Positions 9,589-39,176 of a stretch of DNA of 39,292 nucleotides are shown here, in pieces; within the stretch, counting starts at the first letter, position 1, and every line of letters starts with the position of its first letter. The position numbers and the translations under genes were made by a program. The stretch lies in NCBI GenBank assembly GCA_913041665.1, contig CAJWKT010000007.1:1-39292 (forward strand), in the 5' to 3' direction. This DNA is from an uncultured Gammaproteobacteria bacterium. Its GTDB lineage: Bacteria > Pseudomonadota > Gammaproteobacteria > Steroidobacterales > Rariloculaceae. The notes under the pieces were generated by a model. It searched no databases, had not been told where the DNA came from, and saw only the letters and a list, made by a program, of their open reading frames with translations.

Positions 9589-9930
9589 CTATCCCCCCAA
9601 TGTCCTGAGATAGGCAATCACATCCCGCACATTGGGAGCCGTCATACTCTCTACGCGTTGCATTTTGCCCTTACCACGAACGATGAGCTGGCGAATTTCT
9701 AAGTCAGTCAGAGCCTGAGTTTCTGCTGATCCCAAATACCTGAACTCAATGTCCAGCGCTACCGATATTTCTCGATTACCCCGCGCATCTGCCCCATGAC
9801 ATCGTTGACACTTTGACTGATAAACTGAAAGTCCCGTTGCAGGATCCTGTGAAAATGCACTGCCTGTCAGAGCAAAAAACAGGAATACTGATCCGCAGAT
9901 CTTCCCAACCGACAAATTCGTGACCATCAT
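9589..9930 (-). CDS. c-type cytochrome (single heme), exported
   Basis: Signal peptide; heme motif CQRCH; KMQRV Met region. Start overlaps the stop of the upstream cytochrome gene. Confidence 0.88.
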   Translation of the reverse strand: MMVTNLSVGKICGSVFLFFALTGSAFSQDPATGLSVYQSKCQRCHGADARGNREISVALDIEFRYLGSAETQALTDLEIRQLIVRGKGKMQRVESMTAPNVRDVIAYLRTLGG

Positions 9931-10310
9931 TCCTCGTTCAAAAGCGGTATGTCTTCCAAATCTAGTGAGGTTGAAGGTAGCGACCTGATGTAAGCATACA
10001 CATCAGCCAAATCCTGCTCAGAAACGTCCGGCCCAGCGTAAGCAGGCATACTAAAGCCCATTCCAAATCCACCGGGCATCTCAGGTGGATCACGGAGATA
10101 GTCTATGAAGTCTGGCAGGGTAAACAAAAGTGGATTAAGCCGCACTCTGGCCGTCTCCCCAGTGTACCCGTGACAGGCATAACAACTATAGGCGCTGTAG
10201 AGCTTCCTCCCGCTCTCAACATCGCCCTCCAGCTCCTGTGCCCAAGAAGCAGAGAGAGAAAGAAAAAACCCGATTACAGCCAAAGGCAACACCACAGAAA
10301 TATTCTTCAT
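9927..10310 (-). CDS. c-type cytochrome (single heme), exported
   Basis: Signal peptide; heme motif CYACH; MPAYAGPDVSEQDLADVYAYIRSLP. Confidence 0.9.
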   Translation of the reverse strand: MKNISVVLPLAVIGFFLSLSASWAQELEGDVESGRKLYSAYSCYACHGYTGETARVRLNPLLFTLPDFIDYLRDPPEMPGGFGMGFSMPAYAGPDVSEQDLADVYAYIRSLPSTSLDLEDIPLLNEE

Positions 10311-10322
10311 AACAGCCTCACT

Positions 10323-12236
10323 CTACCGCGGCTGGGTTACAACATCGACCAACGCTGGCTCGCCTGCTCGAACATGGGCAAGTGCACGCTGAAGCGCTGG
10401 ACCCAGATCATTCGGATCCTCAATGGGACCTTCACCATACATGCCGTAGGTCTCAGCCATTTTCGCGTAATTGATATTGGGATCGCGAAGGGTTGTTCCA
10501 ATGTGAGCCCTATCAGAGCCGCGCTTCCGTTCCGCACACTGGCGTTGCACAAACATCACTTCCGCGTGATAGGCACGATTATTATGCATCACGGTTAGAA
10601 GCGGGATTTTGTGATGCACAGCCGTCCACAAAACCCCTGGTGCATAGTTAAGATCCCCGTCAGTCTGAATATTGATGGAAAGCCGACCGTGTTTCTTATT
10701 GGCCAGTGCAGCACCAACCGAAGCAGGGGCATTGTAGCCAATACCAGCTGCACCTTGACCACCGATATAATGATAATGTTTTTCCACATTCCACAAGCGA
10801 CCCGGCCACTGACTGATGAAGTTCTGCCAAGAGACTAAAGACCAGTCATCATGCTTAACTTGCCCCCAAAGCTCTGCACACAAACGGGCCAGACTTACTG
10901 GAGTTGCATTCCAGCCATAGGCGGCATCAATACGGTTTTGTTCGTGATCAAGCGCATGTTCTGCCGCGATAATTTCGCCCCGGGCTTTCAACTCCCGCCT
11001 GCGGCCATCAGTGAGCAAAAGCCGAACTTCCTCGATCAGGGCTGGCAATGTGGCCTGTGCATCCGCTGCAATCGATAGATCTACCTCGGCATAGCGCCCG
11101 TAATCATGGATATTGCTGCCATGAAAAAGATCCACCGATGAAATACTGATTGTCCTTGCGCCGGTTCTTTGTGCGGCTCGGGCCTGGTTGTACATGTCAT
11201 TCACTTCGAGCGCCAAAATTACATCGGGCTCGTAGCCGAACCCACCCCTTCCGTAGAGTGGGTGACGCCAAGGGAAATTTACCCGCTCACTACCAGTTAC
11301 TGGAGTTTGCAAGAGTTCAGCGAGCTCTACCAGGAGATCAATACCTTCGGGTGTCCGAGCATAACGCTGCGCAGATATCAGGGGACTTTCCGCCTCAACA
11401 AGCATCCGGGCGGCCTCACGCACTGCATTGGCATCACCCTGCGGAGGTGCCGCCATGGTGAGTCTAGGAACCCTCGGCATTGATTTACCATCAATGGGCT
11501 CTCCCTGCATCTTGTGATCAATCACTACCAGAGTGGGCCCCATAGGCGGGGTCATGCCGATTTTGTAAGCACGAACTGCAGACTGCGCGAATCGTCCTAC
11601 TGATAGCGTTTCATCATCCCATTTCACAAAATCCCGGACCAGGGCACCTAGGTCTTGAGCACTGTGGTAAGCATTCACACCCCCGGCGGGGTCGTAGTGA
11701 TTCGCTGCCATAATATAAACGGGCACCCGATCAGCATACGCGTTGTAGATCGCCATGGAGCCATGCATCAGACCCACCGTGCCATGCAGAAGCGCCATCA
11801 TGGGCTTACCTTCGATCTTTGCGTAACCGTGAGCCATAGCCACCGCGGACTCTTCATGCAAACAGGTCAACAACTCAGGGCTCTTGTTGCCACCATAATT
11901 GATCAGCGATTCGTGCAGACCGTCAAAACTTGAGCCGGGATTAGTGGTTATGTAATCGAGATTGAGAGACTTAATGACATCTACCATAAAGTCCGATGTC
12001 GGGTTCTCTACAAAATGATAACCAGCTTGTTTAGTCGAAGGACCCACTATAGAGGTTAGCTCGGCCTGGGACGGCGGTAACGCACTCGGACGTGGATTAT
12101 CCGACTGCTGAGCATCAACAACGGGGGGCTTTGTCGCCAAGGCCGCCGCACCTACAGCTGCGCCCTTGAGAAAATTACGTCGATCTACCGCATTGTTATC
12201 CCGTGAAACCGGCTGGCGTTGCTTTCCTTTGCTCAT
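10323..12236 (-). CDS. Thiamine-diphosphate-dependent enzyme (benzoylformate decarboxylase/acetolactate synthase-like) with Tat signal
   Basis: Twin-arginine signal DRRNFLKGAAVGAAALA; NPGSSFDG, LHEESAVAMAHGYAK (ThDP-activating Glu region), TDGDLNYAPG...MHNNRAYHAE (GDG...NN type ThDP motif). Confidence 0.88.
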   Translation of the reverse strand: MSKGKQRQPVSRDNNAVDRRNFLKGAAVGAAALATKPPVVDAQQSDNPRPSALPPSQAELTSIVGPSTKQAGYHFVENPTSDFMVDVIKSLNLDYITTNPGSSFDGLHESLINYGGNKSPELLTCLHEESAVAMAHGYAKIEGKPMMALLHGTVGLMHGSMAIYNAYADRVPVYIMAANHYDPAGGVNAYHSAQDLGALVRDFVKWDDETLSVGRFAQSAVRAYKIGMTPPMGPTLVVIDHKMQGEPIDGKSMPRVPRLTMAAPPQGDANAVREAARMLVEAESPLISAQRYARTPEGIDLLVELAELLQTPVTGSERVNFPWRHPLYGRGGFGYEPDVILALEVNDMYNQARAAQRTGARTISISSVDLFHGSNIHDYGRYAEVDLSIAADAQATLPALIEEVRLLLTDGRRRELKARGEIIAAEHALDHEQNRIDAAYGWNATPVSLARLCAELWGQVKHDDWSLVSWQNFISQWPGRLWNVEKHYHYIGGQGAAGIGYNAPASVGAALANKKHGRLSINIQTDGDLNYAPGVLWTAVHHKIPLLTVMHNNRAYHAEVMFVQRQCAERKRGSDRAHIGTTLRDPNINYAKMAETYGMYGEGPIEDPNDLGPALQRALAHVRAGEPALVDVVTQPR

Positions 12237-12359: not shown

Positions 12360-12767
12360 TTATGTTTCTATGAGAGACAAGAGCCGGTCCTTCGCATGCT
12401 CCACATCCACTAACGGGTCTTTCCGGTATCGACCGACTTCCTCAGCATCATATGGTTCAAAATCTCTCGGTAAGTTATCCGGGCTGAATTCATAAAGTAT
12501 CCAATTCAGGACTTCGGCTAATTCAGCATCATTGACAAGGGAACCAGAAACACCCGGGACCCGCACCAGAAACTCTCTGCCACCTTCCACCGAAAGGAAA
12601 CGGCCAACTCCGATCAAGGCGGGAATTTTTCCCGAAGTCCCGCCGCCATTAACAAGATGGCAACCCTGACAGTGCAAAATATAGTTGAAATGGGCTGATT
12701 CTGCGTTTGCTTCACTAAATAGGTTAAATACAAAAACTAAGACCGCTAACAGGAACGTTAAACGCAT
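12360..12767 (-). CDS. Small c-type cytochrome adjacent to amine dehydrogenase light chain
   Basis: Signal peptide; CQGCH heme motif; DAELAEVLNWIL C-terminal helix typical of cytochrome c. Confidence 0.82.
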   Translation of the reverse strand: MRLTFLLAVLVFVFNLFSEANAESAHFNYILHCQGCHLVNGGGTSGKIPALIGVGRFLSVEGGREFLVRVPGVSGSLVNDAELAEVLNWILYEFSPDNLPRDFEPYDAEEVGRYRKDPLVDVEHAKDRLLSLIET

Positions 12768-12771
12768 GGGC

Positions 12772-13317
12772 TCAGTTTCCCTCAGAAATACCTAATACGA
12801 GCGCTACGGTACTGTTGTAAGCAGTAGTTGAGGAAGCGAGGCACCAGTTAATATTGTTTGATTTTGCTGGCACATAGGTGGGCCTGTCATCTTCATTATT
12901 ATTACAAAAACACTGGCCACAACGACTCTGTCCACAACAGTCGTTGTATGAAATGAGGTAATCACGATTGTCAGCGGGATTGCGGCAAGTCCCTACCCAA
13001 GTGACGGCAGACATCTCTGTACCTGGGGGGCAAGAAGTCGCCGTACCCCCGCAACAGGCCGACATGAAACCATCGATTGAACAGTAGCGCCAATAGTCAC
13101 AGCTCTGCGGGTCACCAGCATCCCCCTCAATATCAGGATCCTTGAACCCCATATCAGCTGCCTGTGCACCTACCCGCGACATTGGCAATAACGGAATGGA
13201 GGCCGCGCCGAACAAAAATGTACCCAACTGGGATAAAAAACTACGACGTGAAGTGCGCCTAGCAAAATGCCTAGCACTTATTTCGAACCCCCGATCAATC
13301 CAATTTCTTTGCTGCAT
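12772..13317 (-). CDS. aauA: TTQ amine dehydrogenase light (beta) chain, aromatic amine dehydrogenase-like
   Basis: Tat signal TSRRSFLSQLG; CDYWRYCSIDGF..CCGG...CPPG, TWVGTC and NINWC (the two TTQ Trp), SYNDCCG. Upstream ATG at 13338 is also possible. Confidence 0.9.
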   Translation of the reverse strand: MQQRNWIDRGFEISARHFARRTSRRSFLSQLGTFLFGAASIPLLPMSRVGAQAADMGFKDPDIEGDAGDPQSCDYWRYCSIDGFMSACCGGTATSCPPGTEMSAVTWVGTCRNPADNRDYLISYNDCCGQSRCGQCFCNNNEDDRPTYVPAKSNNINWCLASSTTAYNSTVALVLGISEGN

Positions 13318-13318
13318 T

Positions 13319-13945
13319 TCAGGCCACCTCCTCCTCATTTATTTCTTTGCTCTGGGCTAACTCCATAAATTCCTGCAACGATGCGACGCCCCTCTCGCTA
13401 GCCTCAAACAGACTCTCAATGTGCTCTCGAGAATTGACGAGGCCTGTAGAGCGAATAACACCAGTTTCGTCGATTAGCACAGCATGCGGAAGTCTTCCAA
13501 CCCTGTACCCCAGACCAAGTTCCGTGGACAAAAAATATGGAAATTTTTCCAAACGATAATCCCTTACGAATGACTCGTGTTCCTTTCGCTCCCCATCGCT
13601 AGCCAAAAGAATATTCAACCACTTCTTTTCGCGATTGGAGATTGACTTAAGCGCAGGCAACAACGTTTTGCAGACCGGACAGGTTGGAGAAAGAAAAAAG
13701 AGTAAACGGCTGCGCGCGTTTGGAAATTCTCCACCAACCTGATGTAGCTCACCATTCAAATCTCGCAGATTTAATATCGGTGCAGCCTCTCCTACTTTCG
13801 GACCATTGCCAAGCACAAGTGCACCAGCCGGTGCGACCCTTTCGTAGAGAACTCCGATCTGACGAACCAAAGCAAACATCACTGCTACTGTCGCTAGCAC
13901 TACAATCCATAGCAACAGATTTGAAACCAATAGCCCGTTCAACAT
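13319..13945 (-). CDS. mauD: MauD-like thioredoxin-fold protein for amine dehydrogenase light-chain maturation
   Basis: N-terminal TM helix, FFLSPTCPVCKTLLPAL, position between mauE-like and light-chain genes. Confidence 0.9.
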   Translation of the reverse strand: MLNGLLVSNLLLWIVVLATVAVMFALVRQIGVLYERVAPAGALVLGNGPKVGEAAPILNLRDLNGELHQVGGEFPNARSRLLFFLSPTCPVCKTLLPALKSISNREKKWLNILLASDGERKEHESFVRDYRLEKFPYFLSTELGLGYRVGRLPHAVLIDETGVIRSTGLVNSREHIESLFEASERGVASLQEFMELAQSKEINEEEVA

Positions 13946-13947
13946 AT

Positions 13948-14475
13948 TTATCTCCTGAGACGAGCAAGCTCGGGAACATTAGCAATCAGTCTATTGACTG
14001 TAGCGTAAACCGCCACAAGGGCGCCAACTGCAAAAATAATAGAGATGCTGTCCAGCCACAAAAATTCCCTGGGCTGTACGGGTAACAAACAAGCCAATGC
14101 TAGACCCGCTAACAACAGGTTCCGCCACACCAACCATCCACTCAGGGATTGCTGCGCTAGCCCCATACAACCGCAATCAATATATCGACGGCCTCTGAAA
14201 AGATTGATCCCGATCGCGGCAGCATATATCCCAAATAACCCAGCGCTACTTAGCAAAAAAAAGGAACGGGTGAATGGCAACACCACACCGATACTAAAAC
14301 AAAGCTCCATCCCCACGAGGGCCGCCGAAAAAGGAACTATCGTACTTTCAGGCACCAGTTGATAATCACGTAGGGTGGCAACAAAACCCTCAAAAACAAA
14401 CGCTTTTTTTACAGCTGCTGTAAACCATAAAAGTGCGAGAGCGTAGCAAATTACTAATTCAATAACCGGGTCCAT
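13948..14475 (-). CDS. mauE: MauE-like membrane protein for amine dehydrogenase maturation
   Basis: Multi-TM, RDYQLVPESTIVPFSAALVGMELCFSIGVVLP, YIDCGCMG; adjacent to mauD-like gene. Confidence 0.87.
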   Translation of the reverse strand: MDPVIELVICYALALLWFTAAVKKAFVFEGFVATLRDYQLVPESTIVPFSAALVGMELCFSIGVVLPFTRSFFLLSSAGLFGIYAAAIGINLFRGRRYIDCGCMGLAQQSLSGWLVWRNLLLAGLALACLLPVQPREFLWLDSISIIFAVGALVAVYATVNRLIANVPELARLRR

Positions 14476-14489
14476 TTTCTGATCACCCT

Positions 14490-15671
14490 CTATTGCGCTT
14501 GATTTCTTAGGGTCAGCCGGCCGCTCCCTGGTACGTTTTTCAGCTGCTCGTGTATGTATTCACCCGTGATCGCATTGCGAACAGAGACCCCACCCCCCAC
14601 CGTAACCAATACTGAGCCATCACCTTGGGTGACAAGTATGCCCGAGGCTCCATCACCGCTCGTTGAGCCAATGCCAGTAGTGGCACCAATCTCTTCATCC
14701 TCTCGCTCAGGCACAGCCTCCAGTCGTTGGACACGTTGCCGGGATTCGAGATCATAAACCCAGATTTCAGTACCATCCATGTCACCAGGATCATCTAATG
14801 GCTCCTCGCTCTGGCGGACCAACGAATAGAGTCGGCTGGTCGCCTGATGGATAACTAGGTGTTGCTTCCCCGCAATACGCCAGTTCTCGGCTCGATCCTC
14901 ATCAGTCAAAAGCGACCAGCTATCCTCGAACTGCAGCGTAGCGCCTGATACGTCCAATGGATGAACCACGCCACCGAAAGACACAAACAACCATTGGTCA
15001 CCATAACGCACGCCTGCCTCCGTAATCGGGTCACCCTCCGGATCAAAATAACCAGCTGTGCGCGTTTTCGACAGTTCTCCGCCATCCTCATCTAGCGTCA
15101 CTGAAAGCACGCCACCATCTGCGCACAGCATCAAATAACGACGCTCACCTGCCGGATAAACCAAACTGCACCCGGGCGTGGAAATTTCTCCAACGAACTC
15201 TCTTCTCTCAATATCAACAACACTCAGGGACGTCGCAGGCGTCAAGTTAAAGACTGCAAGAAAACGGTTTTCGTCGGATAGAGCCGTCGCGCCGTCGATA
15301 CTTCCCATGAGAGCTCTCTTCGGAGGAACGATAATCTCATCTACTGGTGCAAGTGTACTCGTATCAAAGATGGTAACCGTGTCCGTACGCTGGCCTCGGT
15401 TGCCTCGTGAGTAAAAACTCTCCACTGTAAACATGAAACGGTTGTCGGCAGAGAACGTAAAGGACGATCCCATCCCTCCGCCTGAGACCCCAGCTATGCC
15501 GAGAAACTTGTTGTCCATAACGTCTACTAGACTGGAGCCGATGAACACCCAATCTGGTTCCGGCTCAACCGGCAGAACCTCGGAGGCCCCATGACTATCG
15601 AATGTCTGAGCAAAGCAAACGTTGGTCCAAAAGATCGCAATAAACAAAAAAGATTGTATTTTTACATTCAT
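14490..15671 (-). CDS. aauB: TTQ amine dehydrogenase large (alpha) subunit, beta-propeller
   Basis: Signal peptide; DWVFIGSSLVDVMDNKFLGIAGVSGGGMGSSFTFSADNRFMFTVESFYSRGNRGQRTDTVTIFD is characteristic of amine dehydrogenase heavy chains; cluster position. Confidence 0.88.
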   Translation of the reverse strand: MNVKIQSFLFIAIFWTNVCFAQTFDSHGASEVLPVEPEPDWVFIGSSLVDVMDNKFLGIAGVSGGGMGSSFTFSADNRFMFTVESFYSRGNRGQRTDTVTIFDTSTLAPVDEIIVPPKRALMGSIDGATALSDENRFLAVFNLTPATSLSVVDIERREFVGEISTPGCSLVYPAGERRYLMLCADGGVLSVTLDEDGGELSKTRTAGYFDPEGDPITEAGVRYGDQWLFVSFGGVVHPLDVSGATLQFEDSWSLLTDEDRAENWRIAGKQHLVIHQATSRLYSLVRQSEEPLDDPGDMDGTEIWVYDLESRQRVQRLEAVPEREDEEIGATTGIGSTSGDGASGILVTQGDGSVLVTVGGGVSVRNAITGEYIHEQLKNVPGSGRLTLRNQAQ

Positions 15672-15693: not shown

Positions 15694-16938
15694 CTAATTT
15701 CCCAATCCAGGCAAAGCCAGATTATCTTGGTATAGGCAATTGGCTTCTTTCACATCAGATCTCAAGACCCGATCTCTGAACTTTGTGTGCTTCCATTCCC
15801 CTACCCAGTGCTCTGGGTCGACGAACATATATTCAGTCATCAGGGTGTTTCCGTCATTGAGTATTTGTATGCGCTCGATAATTTTCAGTTGACTACCCGT
15901 GACCACGCCTGCTTGCATCATATGATTTTCATCCGTGAATCCTTCAGTTTCCACAACCAATACATCTCCTTCCCAATGAGCTAAGGATTCGCCTCCCCAG
16001 TTGCGGTCAAGATAATTATCGGGCACACGGGGGCGCCCATCGAGATAGATGACCCGGTACTCGTTGTTCAGTCTAGAAATCATAAAAATTGCGGTAGAAT
16101 ATTGAAGCATCATCAAGGAACCGTAGCGTGTCATCATTCTGGGCATTCCAGCCGGATAACAGAAGGCCGTAGGGTCCCGAAAGCGATCCCCTTTTACCGC
16201 CGCCTCCTGATAAGCATCATAGAACGCTTGGCCTTTAGCCGTAAATTGAGGCTCCGGCTTAAATTCGTAGGAGCCATAATTTTCTCTCCATTGATCTTCC
16301 CCTCGATACTGCCACACGCCGGTCAGATCAAAGGATGAATTTTGTTGCTCTTTTTGCAAGTTACTAGGGTCTAATGCTCCGGATACCCGCCCTGTGCTAG
16401 TAGAATCCCCGGTTCCGAGACCATCAGAAATGATAGGCAATCTGTTGGGACGCGTTTTCCTCTCCCGCTCTTGCCACGTTTCTCCCGATGGCGGTGGAAC
16501 ATAGGCCGTCAAGGAGGGGATCACCTGTCGTTGTTGCTCCGGAGTCTCCGGCCCATCCATGGAATAAGCCACTCCATCTGCGGAAATCAGTCCCTGTAGC
16601 AACCCGCCGGGTTCACCGTTTCGCATGGGGTGAACACGGACAGTAATTTCATCACCTTCAGACACGACGTTTCGATCAAATCCCGCTGCAACCATTGTTG
16701 CAATGCTTTGTCCCTCAATTTTCCATAAAACATTAGTACCATCATCATTTTTTACATCCATATTGATGCTGAGGTGCGGGCTACGCCATATGAACTGAGT
16801 GACCTCTCCTGTTACTTGAAGGGATGAATTTGGCTCAAAAGCCACCGCTGAATGGTGAGCAAGTACTGTCGGAGATGAATACACAAACGCAAGCAAAACG
16901 ATCATTACACTGGTGGTTCTACTGATGACTTCTTCCAT
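15694..16938 (-). CDS. Exported protein: N-terminal DUF6152-like domain fused to a C-terminal hypothetical domain
   Basis: Signal peptide; HHSAVAFEPNSSLQVTGEVTQFIWRSPHLSI (DUF6152-like), then VIYLDGRPRVPDNY...HWEGDVLVVETEGF. Confidence 0.7.
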   Translation of the reverse strand: MEEVISRTTSVMIVLLAFVYSSPTVLAHHSAVAFEPNSSLQVTGEVTQFIWRSPHLSINMDVKNDDGTNVLWKIEGQSIATMVAAGFDRNVVSEGDEITVRVHPMRNGEPGGLLQGLISADGVAYSMDGPETPEQQRQVIPSLTAYVPPPSGETWQERERKTRPNRLPIISDGLGTGDSTSTGRVSGALDPSNLQKEQQNSSFDLTGVWQYRGEDQWRENYGSYEFKPEPQFTAKGQAFYDAYQEAAVKGDRFRDPTAFCYPAGMPRMMTRYGSLMMLQYSTAIFMISRLNNEYRVIYLDGRPRVPDNYLDRNWGGESLAHWEGDVLVVETEGFTDENHMMQAGVVTGSQLKIIERIQILNDGNTLMTEYMFVDPEHWVGEWKHTKFRDRVLRSDVKEANCLYQDNLALPGLGN

Positions 16939-16950
16939 GTTAGCTTCTCC

Positions 16951-17994
16951 CTATAACCTACGATCAGCACGATCAATGTATTCTTGCATTTTCCCTTCGT
17001 CGTACAACTGACGAAAAAATGAATCCGGATCACATTCATAGGGAAAAAGAACAGCATCAGCGTCACGATGCCATTGCCGACGGCGAATCGGTGGCCTCAA
17101 ATAATTCTCCGGATCATGTAACGTCATCACAACAGTCAGCATCGTGCCGTCTTCATTCAACTGGTAACGCTCCACGAACTTGGCATTCTCAGACACAGGC
17201 TCACCGAGAAAATCCCTGACATTTCGAGACAGCAAGGTCGTCTCAATTACGAATGTACCACCCTCCCAGTGCCCTGTGGAAAATCCCATGGGTGAGTGCG
17301 GATAATATTCGGGTGGTTCACGCCCATCCAGGTAGACTCGGCGTACTTCACTCCCCACCTCGTAAATAATTGTTATGCGACCTTCGTCAATCAACCACTC
17401 AGAAGGATAAGCTGACCATGCAATCATCGCTACGATTCCAGGTGAAACACAGCGAACATTTGGTTGGTCTAAATGCAGGAGATAATCCTGATGCCAAATT
17501 TTTGCCTCGGGGGTCAAATCCATGGAGTACTTGCGAAAATCCATGCCTGCTGCAGGTATCCAGGTACCGGACAAATCGGCGAGGCGAGGCTCTCCAACGA
17601 TTTCCACATTTTCACTGGCACGGCGAGCAGTCCAAAACGAGCCAGATTCGTTTGAATCGGGTTGGCCAATGATGCTCAGAGTACCGCTCATCACGTTATC
17701 AGTCAGTCTACCAAGTAGACGACGCTCAAAGATAAAGCCAGCAATATCACGGCTGTCTATGATGAGCTCGATCTGGTCGCCTCCAATATTGACTACGACA
17801 GGACCACCCTCAACATGTCCCATCCACTCTGAGCCTAGACGCTGCAACGCCAAAAGACCCACAACATCAGCTGGTGGCACAGCAAGTTCCAGCATCCAAT
17901 CACCAGAAAAGCCAGTTTCCTTTGATTCCTGAGCACAAACAGAGCCAAACAGGACCCCAAAACAAGCTATTAATGGACAAAACTTTTTAAGCAT
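16951..17994 (-). CDS. Exported hypothetical protein sharing its C-terminal domain with the adjacent gene
   Basis: Signal peptide; VYLDGREPPEYYPHSPMGFSTGHWEGGTFVIETTLL parallels the C-terminal domain of the 15694-16938 product. Confidence 0.7.
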   Translation of the reverse strand: MLKKFCPLIACFGVLFGSVCAQESKETGFSGDWMLELAVPPADVVGLLALQRLGSEWMGHVEGGPVVVNIGGDQIELIIDSRDIAGFIFERRLLGRLTDNVMSGTLSIIGQPDSNESGSFWTARRASENVEIVGEPRLADLSGTWIPAAGMDFRKYSMDLTPEAKIWHQDYLLHLDQPNVRCVSPGIVAMIAWSAYPSEWLIDEGRITIIYEVGSEVRRVYLDGREPPEYYPHSPMGFSTGHWEGGTFVIETTLLSRNVRDFLGEPVSENAKFVERYQLNEDGTMLTVVMTLHDPENYLRPPIRRRQWHRDADAVLFPYECDPDSFFRQLYDEGKMQEYIDRADRRL

Positions 17995-18006
17995 TTTTCT
18001 GCTTCG

Positions 18007-18411
18007 CTAATCGGTATGTCGGTAATCTAACAAGGCACCCGGGGGCAAAACCGTACCATCACCCAGTAGTACCGTCCTAATGTCGAGCAATTTCCTGCCA
18101 TCTCTGCCCCGGTTGCCGGTCATGATAACTTTGTCACCAACTTTGATACTATCCCGAGTCCAACTACCGCGTCTCTGGTAATTTGTAGCACTTCCTCCCC
18201 GAGTATCCCAGATCTCAGTATTCCCTGATTGGGTCTGAACTTCGACGTAATACCGAATATGTGGATTTCTAAACCAGACCCCTGTAACCACTCCTTCGAT
18301 AGTTACCACCTCTCGGATGAACTCTGCCGCAAACGAGTGATGGCCGTAGCCCAAAGTGGGCATGAGACCGAAGCTCAATAACAACCCATAAAAAAGACCT
18401 CGCACGAACAT
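18007..18411 (-). CDS. Exported stand-alone DUF6152-like protein
   Basis: MFVRGLFYGLLLSFGLMPTLGYGHHSFAAEFIREVVTIEGVVTGVWFRNPHIRYYVEV; ORF extends to 18489 but Met at 18411 fits the signal peptide. Confidence 0.75.
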   Translation of the reverse strand: MFVRGLFYGLLLSFGLMPTLGYGHHSFAAEFIREVVTIEGVVTGVWFRNPHIRYYVEVQTQSGNTEIWDTRGGSATNYQRRGSWTRDSIKVGDKVIMTGNRGRDGRKLLDIRTVLLGDGTVLPPGALLDYRHTD

Positions 18412-18710
18412 AACATTAGACCCCCTGTCTAAAATGTCACCACCCTCAGTATAGTGGGACAGCGTTACTAGCCAAACATCAATTATCACTTACTCCTGAA
18501 ATTACAAGCATACGAGGAGTAAGGGGGAAATTTATACAGGTAGAAATTGGTAGGTCCGATAAACGGACGAGGAAAATGTTAGTTCTTTATAATGAGATAC
18601 ATCAATATTCTCTCATTGCAATTCAGAAAAGGGTATGCCCTCCTACCCTTTCCTTAGACCTCATTCACAAAAATTGTTCAGCGCGAGAGTTTCCGGCTAC
18701 TCTAGCAAAT

Positions 18711-34262: not shown

Positions 34263-35384
34263 TTAATGGCAAACGTTATTGGAGAGTCCGATACTAAAGG
34301 CGCCGGCACCACTATATACAGCCGGAATATATCTTATTTCTTGCTTCTCCAGATCGATGACGGCTACCTCAGCTCCATCTTGGAAGGCAACATAGGCGGT
34401 GCGACCGTCTGCAGACCCTAATGCGTCCAGTGGAACGTGGTTGAATTTCCCAGATCGGACCACAGATTTCTGAATATTGTCGTATATATAAAAACTTGGG
34501 TTCTCAGTACTCGCGAGCAAATTCATCCGGTCGAAACGACCCACCGTCACCAGATCAATACCTTCACCGATAATCTGGTCTACGTATTGCTCAAAGCGGT
34601 TTTGCTCAACGGAAAGAAATCGCCCGGTAGCTTTGTCCATCATGTATAAAAACACCCCTTCCGGGGTGGTATAGGGCCGGGCCGGGTCCTCACCAACCTC
34701 GAAGGATCGGTATATCACTTTAGAAAATGCATTGAGGCTGTACACTTCGCCAGACGTCTCGTTCGCTACGTACACATAGCGACCATCTAGGCTTCGGCTT
34801 GGTGATGAGAACTGTTGGTCCCCTCCCTCCGTTAGGCTAATCTCTATTGTTTTACGGACATTGGTATCGATGAGTCCAACTGTGCCGGCCTTACTATTAC
34901 TGTAATAAATATCGATTTCATTCGGGTCAAACAGAACATCTGTCGTGGGTGGAAAATCTTCTAAGGAAAACAAAATTGTCCCGGCATAGGCAGAAAAGAG
35001 CACAAAGCCGCCATCGCGGCTATCCGTAAAACCGATCTTTGAGCCGGTAGTGTCCATCACCATATGCCTAGGTACAATGGGCAACTTCACTCTCTTGGCG
35101 ACCAGTTTATTTTTCAGGTCGTAGAGGGTAACTAACCTCTGTTCAATGTTGGTATAGACCAGAACCGGCGCATGGGGAGTCGCCACCAGATCATCCACTT
35201 TGTAATCTGTTTCTATCCTGAATATCACTTCCTCTTCTCTAAGATCAATCACATCAATGATAGGCTCCAACCCATCAGCAACAAACATCAATCGCAAAGG
35301 ATTCGAGATATCAACCGCTGCCGACGCTGAAGCCGTCCAAACATACCCAGTTACCAGCAAAAGAAATAAGGGTAAGTTTCTCAT
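34263..35384 (-). CDS. Exported YVTN-type beta-propeller protein
   Basis: Signal peptide; repeated blades (VIDLREEEVIFRIETDYKVDDLVATPHAPVLVYTN, SLDGRYVYVANETSGEVYSLNAFSKVIYRSFEVGEDP). Confidence 0.75.
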   Translation of the reverse strand: MRNLPLFLLLVTGYVWTASASAAVDISNPLRLMFVADGLEPIIDVIDLREEEVIFRIETDYKVDDLVATPHAPVLVYTNIEQRLVTLYDLKNKLVAKRVKLPIVPRHMVMDTTGSKIGFTDSRDGGFVLFSAYAGTILFSLEDFPPTTDVLFDPNEIDIYYSNSKAGTVGLIDTNVRKTIEISLTEGGDQQFSSPSRSLDGRYVYVANETSGEVYSLNAFSKVIYRSFEVGEDPARPYTTPEGVFLYMMDKATGRFLSVEQNRFEQYVDQIIGEGIDLVTVGRFDRMNLLASTENPSFYIYDNIQKSVVRSGKFNHVPLDALGSADGRTAYVAFQDGAEVAVIDLEKQEIRYIPAVYSGAGAFSIGLSNNVCH

Positions 35385-35408
35385 TTTTCTCGAGTCCTCG
35401 GTGTAAGC

Positions 35409-36767
35409 TTAATTCAATCCAAGATAGGGATAAATAATATCGCTAACAGTATGAAAATTGTCGGTCACCAGAATCAAGCCGAAGGCAATAATCACTGCCA
35501 TGCTTGCATAGCTCAATCTCTTTGCGTGCCGCGCTAGCAGGACAAGGATACTGTCCACTCTTGAAATGTAGTAGGCTGAAAGTAGGAATGGAATTGCAAT
35601 GCCAATCGCGAATGTCAACATGATTCCAGCTCCAATAGCTGCACTACCAATTGCGCCCACGTACACAATAAGGGTCGCTACGATGGCACCACCAAAACAA
35701 GCGGTACAACCAAGCGCGTAACCCATGGATGCAACTACCGTTCCTGCCGTATCCCTAAACGACAAATTCTGCATAGCCCGCGAGTCAGGAATCTTGCAGG
35801 CTAAGTCCCTAGTGCCCCTCAGCCCTACCCAGATACCCAAAGCAATAACAACTAACCCTGAGATGACAGCAATCAGACGACTGTACTCGGCAAATAACAG
35901 TTGGGCCTGGTGCCCAATCGCACCAATTAATGCGCCTGCGAGCGTATACAAAACCACAAATCCCAGCACAAAGGCAATCGCGATCTGGAGAATTTTGCGT
36001 CGTATGATCGGTGTCATCTGAATCTGGGAGCCGCTTCCACCCGGTAGAGTAGAAAACCCAGCGATCACACCGCCAAACATCACCACTAACTGAAGCAAGC
36101 AGGGCGTCAGAACAGAAGACAAGAGCCCGGCACCCAATGCAAGTACCGCTATAGGTGTGACATCGGCTCTCGATTTAAGTTCTTCTGGAAGACTGTACGG
36201 TGCATCCCAGGCACCCACAAAGGTAAGCTTTTGCTCACTTCCCAAATAATAATTAGAGACATACAACCGCATGCTACCAGCCCCATCGATATCAATTAGG
36301 TTGCCTTGTATATCTCGCTTGGGAAAGCTGTACACAGTGACCCGATGATGTTGCGCATTTCTTGGTCCGTCAGATATATCAGGAAAATACTCCTTCTCGC
36401 CCACTTTCAACAATACATCCGGCACTTCGGCTGCGAGAGAGTCCGCGTGAACAGTTTCGCTTACAAAAAATACTAGGTTTCTGTCTGGGCGTAAATTACC
36501 GACGACACTAGCCCGATCCACATACTGAAAATATTCATCGCTTGCGAATGTGGCGGTCAATTCCAACTCTCTGGTATACACGAGCTCACGGGTCAGATAT
36601 CGAGACACGCTACCCGCTTTTATGAGACGGCTATGATCCCCAACACCGCGCAGTAACTGCTTTCCCTGAACAAAATAAGGAAACACTAGCCAAGACGAAG
36701 CAATCAGAAGCCCGATCAATAGCAGCGCCCCTAACTTGATCGGATTGACTCGCGCTATAGTTACCAT
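35409..36767 (-). CDS. CcdA/DsbD-type transmembrane protein with large N-terminal extracytoplasmic domain
   Basis: VLTPCLLQLVVMFGG and GYALGCTACFGGAIVATLIVYVGA paired-Cys TM motifs; about 190-aa N-terminal soluble domain. Confidence 0.75.
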   Translation of the reverse strand: MVTIARVNPIKLGALLLIGLLIASSWLVFPYFVQGKQLLRGVGDHSRLIKAGSVSRYLTRELVYTRELELTATFASDEYFQYVDRASVVGNLRPDRNLVFFVSETVHADSLAAEVPDVLLKVGEKEYFPDISDGPRNAQHHRVTVYSFPKRDIQGNLIDIDGAGSMRLYVSNYYLGSEQKLTFVGAWDAPYSLPEELKSRADVTPIAVLALGAGLLSSVLTPCLLQLVVMFGGVIAGFSTLPGGSGSQIQMTPIIRRKILQIAIAFVLGFVVLYTLAGALIGAIGHQAQLLFAEYSRLIAVISGLVVIALGIWVGLRGTRDLACKIPDSRAMQNLSFRDTAGTVVASMGYALGCTACFGGAIVATLIVYVGAIGSAAIGAGIMLTFAIGIAIPFLLSAYYISRVDSILVLLARHAKRLSYASMAVIIAFGLILVTDNFHTVSDIIYPYLGLN

Positions 36768-37379
36768 CTAGCGTGCCTTCCAGTCCTGCCGAACAGCCAA
36801 AAGAATTTCTTCCGGGGAAACATTCACCGCAAATATATTTTGCAAGTCACCGTTGGGACCTATTAGATAGATATTGGCGGTATGCTGCACGGTGTAGTTG
36901 CTCTGTGTCTTGGTTACAGCGTAACTCAATTTAAAATTACTTGCCGCGGTGTTGATCTGTTCATAATCACCACTTAGGCCTATCATTCTGTCTCCAAAGG
37001 CAGATGCGTAATTATCGGTCACCATTGGTGTATCGCGCTCCGTATCCACGCTTACAAAAATACCAACTGCATCTCTCTCCGTTGCCTCCAGTACACTAGC
37101 CATATTGAAGGCCATAAGCGGACAAATCTGCTCACAGTGCGTAAAACCAAAAGCCAGAAGCACGTACTGCCCGCGGAAATTCTCCTCGGTAACGGTCACC
37201 CCGTTCCGGTCTAACAGCTCAAAACTCGCCTTGATGCCATGGAAATTATTGATTGAAGCCATGTCGGCGACATTACCAAGGTTGTGATGCAAATGTTCAC
37301 CCTGACCTTGGGAAAAAGCGGACCCTCTAGGTAGTACAACCAGAAACATCGCATACAATATGACGTACTTTTTTACCAT
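36768..37379 (-). CDS. SCO1/SenC family copper/thiol protein
   Basis: FGFTHCEQICPLMAFNMASV (CxxxC) and VQHTANIYLIGPNG (His). Confidence 0.92.
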   Translation of the reverse strand: MVKKYVILYAMFLVVLPRGSAFSQGQGEHLHHNLGNVADMASINNFHGIKASFELLDRNGVTVTEENFRGQYVLLAFGFTHCEQICPLMAFNMASVLEATERDAVGIFVSVDTERDTPMVTDNYASAFGDRMIGLSGDYEQINTAASNFKLSYAVTKTQSNYTVQHTANIYLIGPNGDLQNIFAVNVSPEEILLAVRQDWKAR

Positions 37380-37433
37380 GTCCCTATCTGTCTACCTACC
37401 TCAATGTGCTAACAAGGAGCCTAGCCAGCGCCA

Positions 37434-39176
37434 CTACATCAAAGGGCGACCAAGGGCTGGATTCACGCCGTTATGAAACCCTCCCTGATCACGCACCACG
37501 CGAGACTGGCCTTGCTCGTCATAGTGCACCCAAATAAGCCCGTGAGCGTCTCCGTTTTGAGGCATGTCGATTTTATGGGTGATTTCCTTGGTCTTAGCGT
37601 CATATACATAGATACGGCCCTCACCGTTACTCGTTGACCACATTTCCTTACCATCCGGTGAAAGCAGGACATGATCCGCCTTGTAGGCACCATAAAGCGT
37701 CTCTACTGCGTGACCATTGGAAGTGTCTATCACGGTGATGGTTCGGCCCAAATGGTGTGCACCCTCACCTTTATCAGCGACCCAAAGCTCAGTCTCATCA
37801 GCATTCAGGCTAGCTCCGTACGGCCCGATTCCAGTGCCATTACTCCACTCTATCGCTCCAGTCACCAAGTTAATCTTGGAAACATTAGAGGAACTAGCAA
37901 TCACATAGAGTGCCTCCTTTTTTGAGTCTACGACTGCCCAATTAGGCCGGTAACCGGGAACGGGAATTTCTTGAACCACTTCCCACGTTTTCGCATCTAT
38001 TTTAGCGACCCAAAAGGGCTTCATCGCCACTAATTTACCTTGATACAGATTAATGACACCCCTCATTCCCGTTGAACGTCCTGGCCCATAGCCTCCAGGC
38101 TCCATTAAAGCGTAGATGTACTCGTAGTCCCGGTCCGTCCAAACTGTATAGATCATGCCACCCATATCAATATCTTTAACGCCACCTACTACGGTATCAG
38201 TCTCCGGGTCATACAGCATGAGACCCAGCCCATTCGGATCTCTCGTAAACATATCAAACAGGATGTAATCACCAAAAACCTGGGCATGATGAAGACGCCC
38301 GCCTATGGTTACCTGCTTAATTGGTTGCAACGTGAGTGCATCGACTTTGAGTAAGGTCGCTGAACCCAAAACCGTTTCCTCTAAATCAATGTCTCCATTC
38401 GGCCGGCCGCCAATGATATAAGCGTATCGACCATCGGGTGACATCGCAGAAGTGTGTACTGTGGCACGAAGTTCTTCCGGGATTGCGTAGCTGGCTATAA
38501 TTTCCTTCGTCTCCGCGTCACCAACCACTATCTGGTTCCTAGTTGGTAATTGATAGCCGTCAAAAAGCACCTGAGGAGTGCTGTTCGTTCCCACATTCTC
38601 ATAAAAATAAGTGCGGCCTGGTTGTGGCTTGAATTTCGGTTCCCCCGGATCAAACTCCGCTAAGACCTGGTTTTCATAGTGACTTAGTACGCTCCCCTCT
38701 TTGGCGCGTCGCTCCCAGCTTGTGAGAACCGTGCCAAACGATTCAATGGCCTCAACGGCCAAATCGCGTTCTGTTTTCATGAAGTCGTGGTCAGGTTTCT
38801 GGTTGGCTTTTACAAAAGCGAGCGAATCTCGGTACTGCTGAGGAAGCTCTGGATCCAGAGGAAGTCCACCAAGGGTTCGAATGTACATGGAGATTGCAAC
38901 CAAATCTTCATCGCTGGGATTTAACTCCGAGATGATGACCTGCATCATAGGATTACTCTCAAACTGGGCAAATATATCTGCGGCCGAAGGACCAAAATGC
39001 AGGCTCGGGCCCACAAGTCCTTCACCGGTTTCTTTGTGGCATACCCAGCAACCTACTGGCTTAGCATGGAAAAGCTCTTCTCCTCGGGCAAACAGGATAT
39101 CCATTTCGCTCTGGGCAATGACGGTACCGCCCAGAAAGGATGAAATCATAAAAGAGAAAAATAACTTTCTTTTCAT
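37434..39176 (-). CDS. Cytochrome c/beta-propeller fusion (NirS/NirN-like domain order, tentative)
   Basis: Signal peptide; CWVCHKETGEGLVGPSL heme c domain; propeller with VHTSAMSPDGRYAYIIG and YVTN-type blades. Confidence 0.8.
   Translation of the reverse strand: MKRKLFFSFMISSFLGGTVIAQSEMDILFARGEELFHAKPVGCWVCHKETGEGLVGPSLHFGPSAADIFAQFESNPMMQVIISELNPSDEDLVAISMYIRTLGGLPLDPELPQQYRDSLAFVKANQKPDHDFMKTERDLAVEAIESFGTVLTSWERRAKEGSVLSHYENQVLAEFDPGEPKFKPQPGRTYFYENVGTNSTPQVLFDGYQLPTRNQIVVGDAETKEIIASYAIPEELRATVHTSAMSPDGRYAYIIGGRPNGDIDLEETVLGSATLLKVDALTLQPIKQVTIGGRLHHAQVFGDYILFDMFTRDPNGLGLMLYDPETDTVVGGVKDIDMGGMIYTVWTDRDYEYIYALMEPGGYGPGRSTGMRGVINLYQGKLVAMKPFWVAKIDAKTWEVVQEIPVPGYRPNWAVVDSKKEALYVIASSSNVSKINLVTGAIEWSNGTGIGPYGASLNADETELWVADKGEGAHHLGRTITVIDTSNGHAVETLYGAYKADHVLLSPDGKEMWSTSNGEGRIYVYDAKTKEITHKIDMPQNGDAHGLIWVHYDEQGQSRVVRDQGGFHNGVNPALGRPLM

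Follow-up and report, generated by a model that had tools for sequence, protein, structure and literature searches.

Thiamine diphosphate (ThDP; vitamin B1) chemistry is regarded as cytoplasmic, and enzymes of this kind normally work inside cells; the known periplasmic oxidations of bacteria are carried out by quinoprotein, flavin, and molybdenum enzymes. The quinoprotein alcohol and amine dehydrogenases, which are periplasmic and cytochrome c-linked, resemble the locus described here in that an exported enzyme is encoded beside a dedicated small cytochrome c, but their cofactor is a quinone rather than ThDP. Pyruvate oxidase or pyruvate:quinone oxidoreductase (PoxB), a ThDP enzyme of the same superfamily, oxidizes its intermediate for respiration, using FAD and a quinone at the cytoplasmic face. 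The 2-oxoacid:ferredoxin oxidoreductases resemble the system proposed here in handing on electrons one at a time to a metal-cofactor protein, a ThDP radical giving a single electron to an iron–sulfur cluster (PMC5020499). They differ in their architecture, in their use of iron–sulfur clusters and CoA, and in being cytoplasmic. Finally, benzoylformate decarboxylase (Pseudomonas putida, 1bfd; Mycobacterium smegmatis-type, 4q9d) shares with our enzyme its Glu47 and His70 positions and the NPGS motif; benzoylformate decarboxylase itself, with ≈20% identity over the fold, is cytoplasmic and non-oxidative, has no cytochrome, and works with a separate aldehyde dehydrogenase.

Organization of the locus

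The window (the whole stretch of 39,292 nucleotides analyzed) carries three minus-strand ORFs within 9589 to 12236, exactly where the sequence-only reading had placed a ThDP gene followed by two cytochromes. The ThDP enzyme (10323–12236, minus strand, 637 residues) starts with the ATG at 12236, which is preceded by a GGGAGG ribosome-binding site, and is assigned a benzoylformate decarboxylase-like fold and a Tat signal on the basis of Pfam, NCBIfam, a PDB profile search, AlphaFold2/Foldseek, and conservation. A gap of 12 bp separates its stop from the start of cytochrome c 1 (9927–10310, minus strand, 127 residues), which has one heme motif, CYACH, and the Met-ligand motif MPAY; this gene in turn overlaps by 4 bp (ATGA) that of cytochrome c 2 (9589–9930, minus strand, 113 residues), with the single heme motif CQRCH. 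Both small proteins have Pfam matches to Cytochrom_C/Cytochrome_CBB3. The same genome holds a second copy of the ThDP gene, on contig C12, likewise with a cytochrome c downstream.

Fold and active site of the ThDP enzyme

Pfam identifies TPP_enzyme_N (5.5e-19), TPP_enzyme_C (6.9e-21), and, more weakly, the central TPP_enzyme_M domain (6.4e-6). An AlphaFold2 model (mean pLDDT 84, pTM 0.84) retrieves benzaldehyde lyase, benzoylformate decarboxylase, glyoxylate carboligase, and acetolactate synthase in Foldseek, with query TM scores of 0.66 to 0.72 at ≈20% identity, and a PDB profile search returns benzoylformate decarboxylase and benzaldehyde lyase as the closest solved sequences. The N- and C-terminal domains, the fold, the cofactor Glu, and the NN motif all place the protein in the ThDP superfamily (BFD/PDC/ALS type). 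The ThDP motif picked out in the sequence-only reading is borne out by a 47-sequence alignment, in which E128, H151, D526-G527-D528, and N552-N553 are invariant; in the canonical GDG motif, Thr takes the place of the initial Gly. E128 and H151, which are retained in non-exported relatives as well, align with Glu 47 and His 70 of P. putida benzoylformate decarboxylase, and NPGS is common to the enzyme and 4q9d. The likeness to benzoylformate decarboxylase previously proposed from the NPGS and LHG segments agrees with this alignment, from which the predicted active site is like that of benzoylformate decarboxylase.

The central domain bears on whether electrons could leave through a flavin. It is 8 residues shorter than that of acetolactate synthase, in the helix region ahead of the DVILAL strand, and since the shortening falls at this acetolactate synthase helix, the enzyme is unlikely to have a classical FAD site, an argument that stops short of proof. 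An exported pyruvate oxidase-like enzyme carrying both ThDP and FAD, with electrons moving via the bound flavin to cytochrome c, would fit the fact that flavin is a usual relay from two-electron to one-electron chemistry, and pyruvate oxidase, acetohydroxyacid synthase, and glyoxylate carboligase, all of the same superfamily, do bind FAD, the last of these being among the fold matches. We nonetheless judge such an enzyme unlikely, as the closest solved relatives, benzoylformate decarboxylase and benzaldehyde lyase, need no FAD and the central domain is both short and weakly matched. Pyruvate oxidase is absent from the best matches, none appearing among the Foldseek and profile matches listed for the ThDP enzyme.

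The Tat leader is conserved

The N terminus of the ThDP enzyme (MSKGKQRQPVSRDNNAVDRRNFLKGAAVGAAALATKPPVVDAQQ...) is a Tat-type leader, which spans residues 1 to ≈35 (12132–12236, minus strand) and combines an RR-x-F-L-K motif (RRNFLK, residues 19–24) with a hydrophobic stretch, as in Tat substrates. The Pfam TAT_signal model matches residues 17 to 35 (1e-4) with 22.5 bits, narrowly missing its cut-off of 22.7. The Tat motif reported in the sequence-only reading is conserved: an RRxF-type motif occurs in 79 of 84 homologous ThDP ORFs, the other five being mostly truncated or mis-started; R19, R20, F22, and L23 are nearly invariant in the 47-row alignment. The window's own genome encodes TatC as well as proteins for cytochrome c assembly. 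On these grounds the enzyme is probably exported to the periplasm. That the RR motif is instead a non-working signal on an ordinary cytoplasmic 2-oxo acid decarboxylase, as the narrowly missed TAT_signal cut-off might be taken to mean, is extremely improbable: RR-x-F-L is conserved across phyla, the whole leader is absent from non-exported relatives, and heme attachment requires the partner cytochrome to be in the periplasm.

A dedicated cytochrome c accompanies the putatively exported enzyme

We scored pairing by the first same-strand CXXCH position downstream of each exported ThDP gene for which at least 600 nt of downstream sequence was available (104 genes). A count by ORF start (51/81) is too low, as starts are hidden by long overlapping ORFs. 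A same-strand CXXCH protein lies downstream of 99 of the 104 genes and is absent beside the remaining five, such that the conserved cytochrome association on which the sequence-only reading had staked its proposal is found on examination. This is the trait of cytochrome c-linked dehydrogenases, a dedicated cytochrome c encoded alongside. The CXXCH position falls at a median of 138 nt past the ThDP stop (range 110–389, 102 pairs); upstream cytochromes are rare (3/74). The partner is a single recognizable cytochrome type, characterized by GC[YW]xCHGxxGQG, MPPY, and a C-terminal IPLL[NK], and carries one heme motif in 86 and two in 16 of the 102 pairs. None of the nearest non-exported relatives has the cytochrome (0/11 versus 99/104; Fisher p = 6e-12, relatedness ignored), and pairwise distances among enzymes and among cytochromes are correlated (r = 0.64; the top of 999 permutations is 0.12). 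No natural fusion of enzyme and cytochrome occurs among 112 genes, and a sequence search found no solved relative of cytochrome c 1. Such linkage and shared inheritance show that enzyme and cytochrome are functionally tied; they do not demonstrate electron transfer.

The three-gene unit envisaged earlier is only partly upheld by these data: cytochrome c 1, identified by Pfam and by its presence at these loci, is the conserved partner, but the second cytochrome is an occasional extra and cytochrome c 2 is best described as accessory. Of the domains of diheme partners, the second is the best match to cytochrome c 1 (1.6e-19), whereas cytochrome c 2 weakly resembles the first domain of some of them (2e-6), and thus the diheme form may be present in the window in two pieces.

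Pairing of this kind also bears on a non-redox role, in which an exported ThDP decarboxylase or carboligase carries out no redox chemistry and the cytochrome serves a separate enzyme that oxidizes its product or substrate. The catalytic residues of benzoylformate decarboxylase type are indeed retained, and carboligases and lyases head the Foldseek list; there is, however, no third conserved gene to be that separate enzyme, and the cytochrome comes directly after the ThDP enzyme at nearly all loci scored. We consider this role improbable.

In some Acidobacteriota, further proteins are encoded near the ThDP locus (L010, 10367–11134; L012, 10417–11295), of which that in L010 matches the photosynthetic reaction center cytochrome c subunit family (3e-12).

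Distribution and phylogeny

A scan of GTDB genomes yielded 80 loci with homologues (47–63% identity) in Acidobacteriota and in alpha-, beta-, and gammaproteobacteria, and named strains with homologues include Limnohabitans sp. 15K, Caballeronia zhejiangensis A33_M4_a, and Novosphingobium sp. KACC 22771. Within the window's bacterial family, 18 of the 21 other genomes have the gene, often in two or three copies, as do only 3 of 36 genomes from the remainder of the order; a class-wide sample of 274 added a single match, of the non-exported type. In a maximum-likelihood tree (quick search), the exported proteins all lie to one side of a single branch, supported at an SH-aLRT of 97, and export and cytochrome pairing therefore most simply arose once. 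The window's ThDP protein groups with Acidobacteriota sequences and with others of its own bacterial family, and the nearest relatives of cytochrome c 1 also include Acidobacteriota ones; we infer that the ThDP gene and its cytochrome may have moved together between phyla, for which such placements are as expected.

The best curated profile matches across the full enzyme are PRK08327 (thiamine pyrophosphate-requiring protein; 218 bits, cut-off 456) and PRK07092 (benzoylformate decarboxylase; 149.5 bits, cut-off 493), the models of which have no leader. Both scores lie far under their cut-offs, and the enzyme is thus covered by no curated family. We found no earlier description of the ThDP–cytochrome pair, and no experiment on any member, in the open-license literature.

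Non-exported relatives and gene neighborhoods

The nearest 11 relatives that lack a Tat leader (31–38% identity) lack the cytochrome also; a phylum sample in which additional relatives of this kind were sought gained two. An aldehyde dehydrogenase is encoded nearby at 5 of 8 non-exported loci versus 6 of 112 exported ones (Fisher p = 1e-4), in a comparison where the non-exported set is small and mostly plasmid-borne and flank lengths are unequal. An alpha-hydroxy acid oxidase is also found near some non-exported relatives. This arrangement matches that of a mandelate-type path, from hydroxy acid to oxo acid and, through the decarboxylase, to aldehyde and then acid. Members of the exported clade have the cytochrome where these cousins have the aldehyde dehydrogenase, a replacement that leads us to propose that one exported enzyme carries out both reactions as an oxidative decarboxylation with cytochrome c as acceptor; the comparison supports this proposal but does not prove it.

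No other neighbor family recurs in more than four members among 132 adjacent same-strand genes, the most frequent being UbiD, MFS, and YkuD (four each) and TctC (two per side), and as a result the enzyme–cytochrome pair looks self-sufficient. With no neighbor family above four members, deduction of the substrate from gene neighbors was dropped.

Proposed mechanism

The pairing of an exported ThDP enzyme with its own cytochrome suggests that, outside the inner membrane, bacteria oxidize oxo acids or aldehydes by an undescribed route, with electrons entering respiration directly. With location, electron transfer, substrate class, and the absence of flavin inferred from the comparisons above, we consider it rather likely that the pair forms a two-component periplasmic oxidoreductase in which the ThDP enzyme oxidizes a 2-oxo acid or an aldehyde and cytochrome c is the acceptor. 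The enzyme would fold in the cytoplasm around ThDP and Mg2+ and would then be exported by the Tat system. In the periplasm, ThDP would add to the 2-oxo acid with release of CO2, and the resulting enamine (Breslow) intermediate would be oxidized by the partner cytochrome c in two one-electron steps, the electrons passing onward to the respiratory chain; an aldehyde could serve as an alternative entry to the same cycle. Hydrolysis of the acyl-ThDP would release the free carboxylic acid, the ending to be expected since there is no CoA in the periplasm. One exported enzyme would in this way replace the apparent decarboxylase and aldehyde dehydrogenase of the cytoplasmic relatives. That the substrate is aromatic is a guess.

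To our knowledge, a c-type heme as the natural acceptor from a ThDP intermediate would be new. Direct one-electron transfer from ThDP to heme, with a dedicated soluble periplasmic cytochrome c as partner and no flavin, iron–sulfur cluster, or lipoate, throughout a widespread and unnamed two-gene family, is a more tentative proposal, to which we give slightly less than an even chance. ThDP intermediates are able to donate single electrons to O2, to the dye DCPIP, and to redox-active inhibitors (PMC11908136). If the proposed oxidation is correct, electrons would have a new way out of the ThDP intermediate, and cells could gain energy from oxo acids or aldehydes with no need for uptake or CoA.

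The neighboring amine dehydrogenase operon

A Mau operon encoding MauB, MauE, MauD, and MauA together with a cytochrome lies upstream of the ThDP gene, on the same strand and 123 bp away, and the sequence-only reading had tentatively tied the two together. On that account, the ThDP enzyme would act on the aldehyde made by the neighboring tryptophan tryptophylquinone (TTQ) amine dehydrogenase, a chemically suitable substrate, and both enzymes would be periplasmic. The tie does not survive comparison with other genomes: five relatives have the Mau operon without the ThDP pair, seven other fetched regions have the ThDP gene without Mau, and because the two are found apart in this way, their adjacency in the window is not conserved. 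The Mau operon moreover has its own cytochrome, and Mau is not among the recurring neighbors of other ThDP pairs. We have rejected the amine dehydrogenase link, which we regard as very unlikely.

The Mau operon (MauB, E, D, and A; 12360–15671, minus strand) ends in a small c-type cytochrome (12360–12767) with no Pfam match. Five relatives share this five-gene unit, with light chains 77 to 80% identical, and the light chain scores under the methylamine dehydrogenase cut-off. The match to the light chain in one more remote relative (L143, G041:C81) crosses one in-frame TGA, which is possibly at or near a cofactor position or may reflect either a pseudogene or an error of assembly.

The window also encodes, on the upstream side of the Mau operon (15694–18489, minus strand), a pair of DUF6152 proteins along with a related secreted protein (16951–17994) that has no Pfam match. 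Proteins similar to these recur near Mau operons (L144 and L145) and near ThDP pairs (L149, L155, and L088) in the same bacterial family. Elsewhere in the window (34263–39176, minus strand), a DsbD-like transmembrane protein is encoded between two weak cytochrome D1-type matches.
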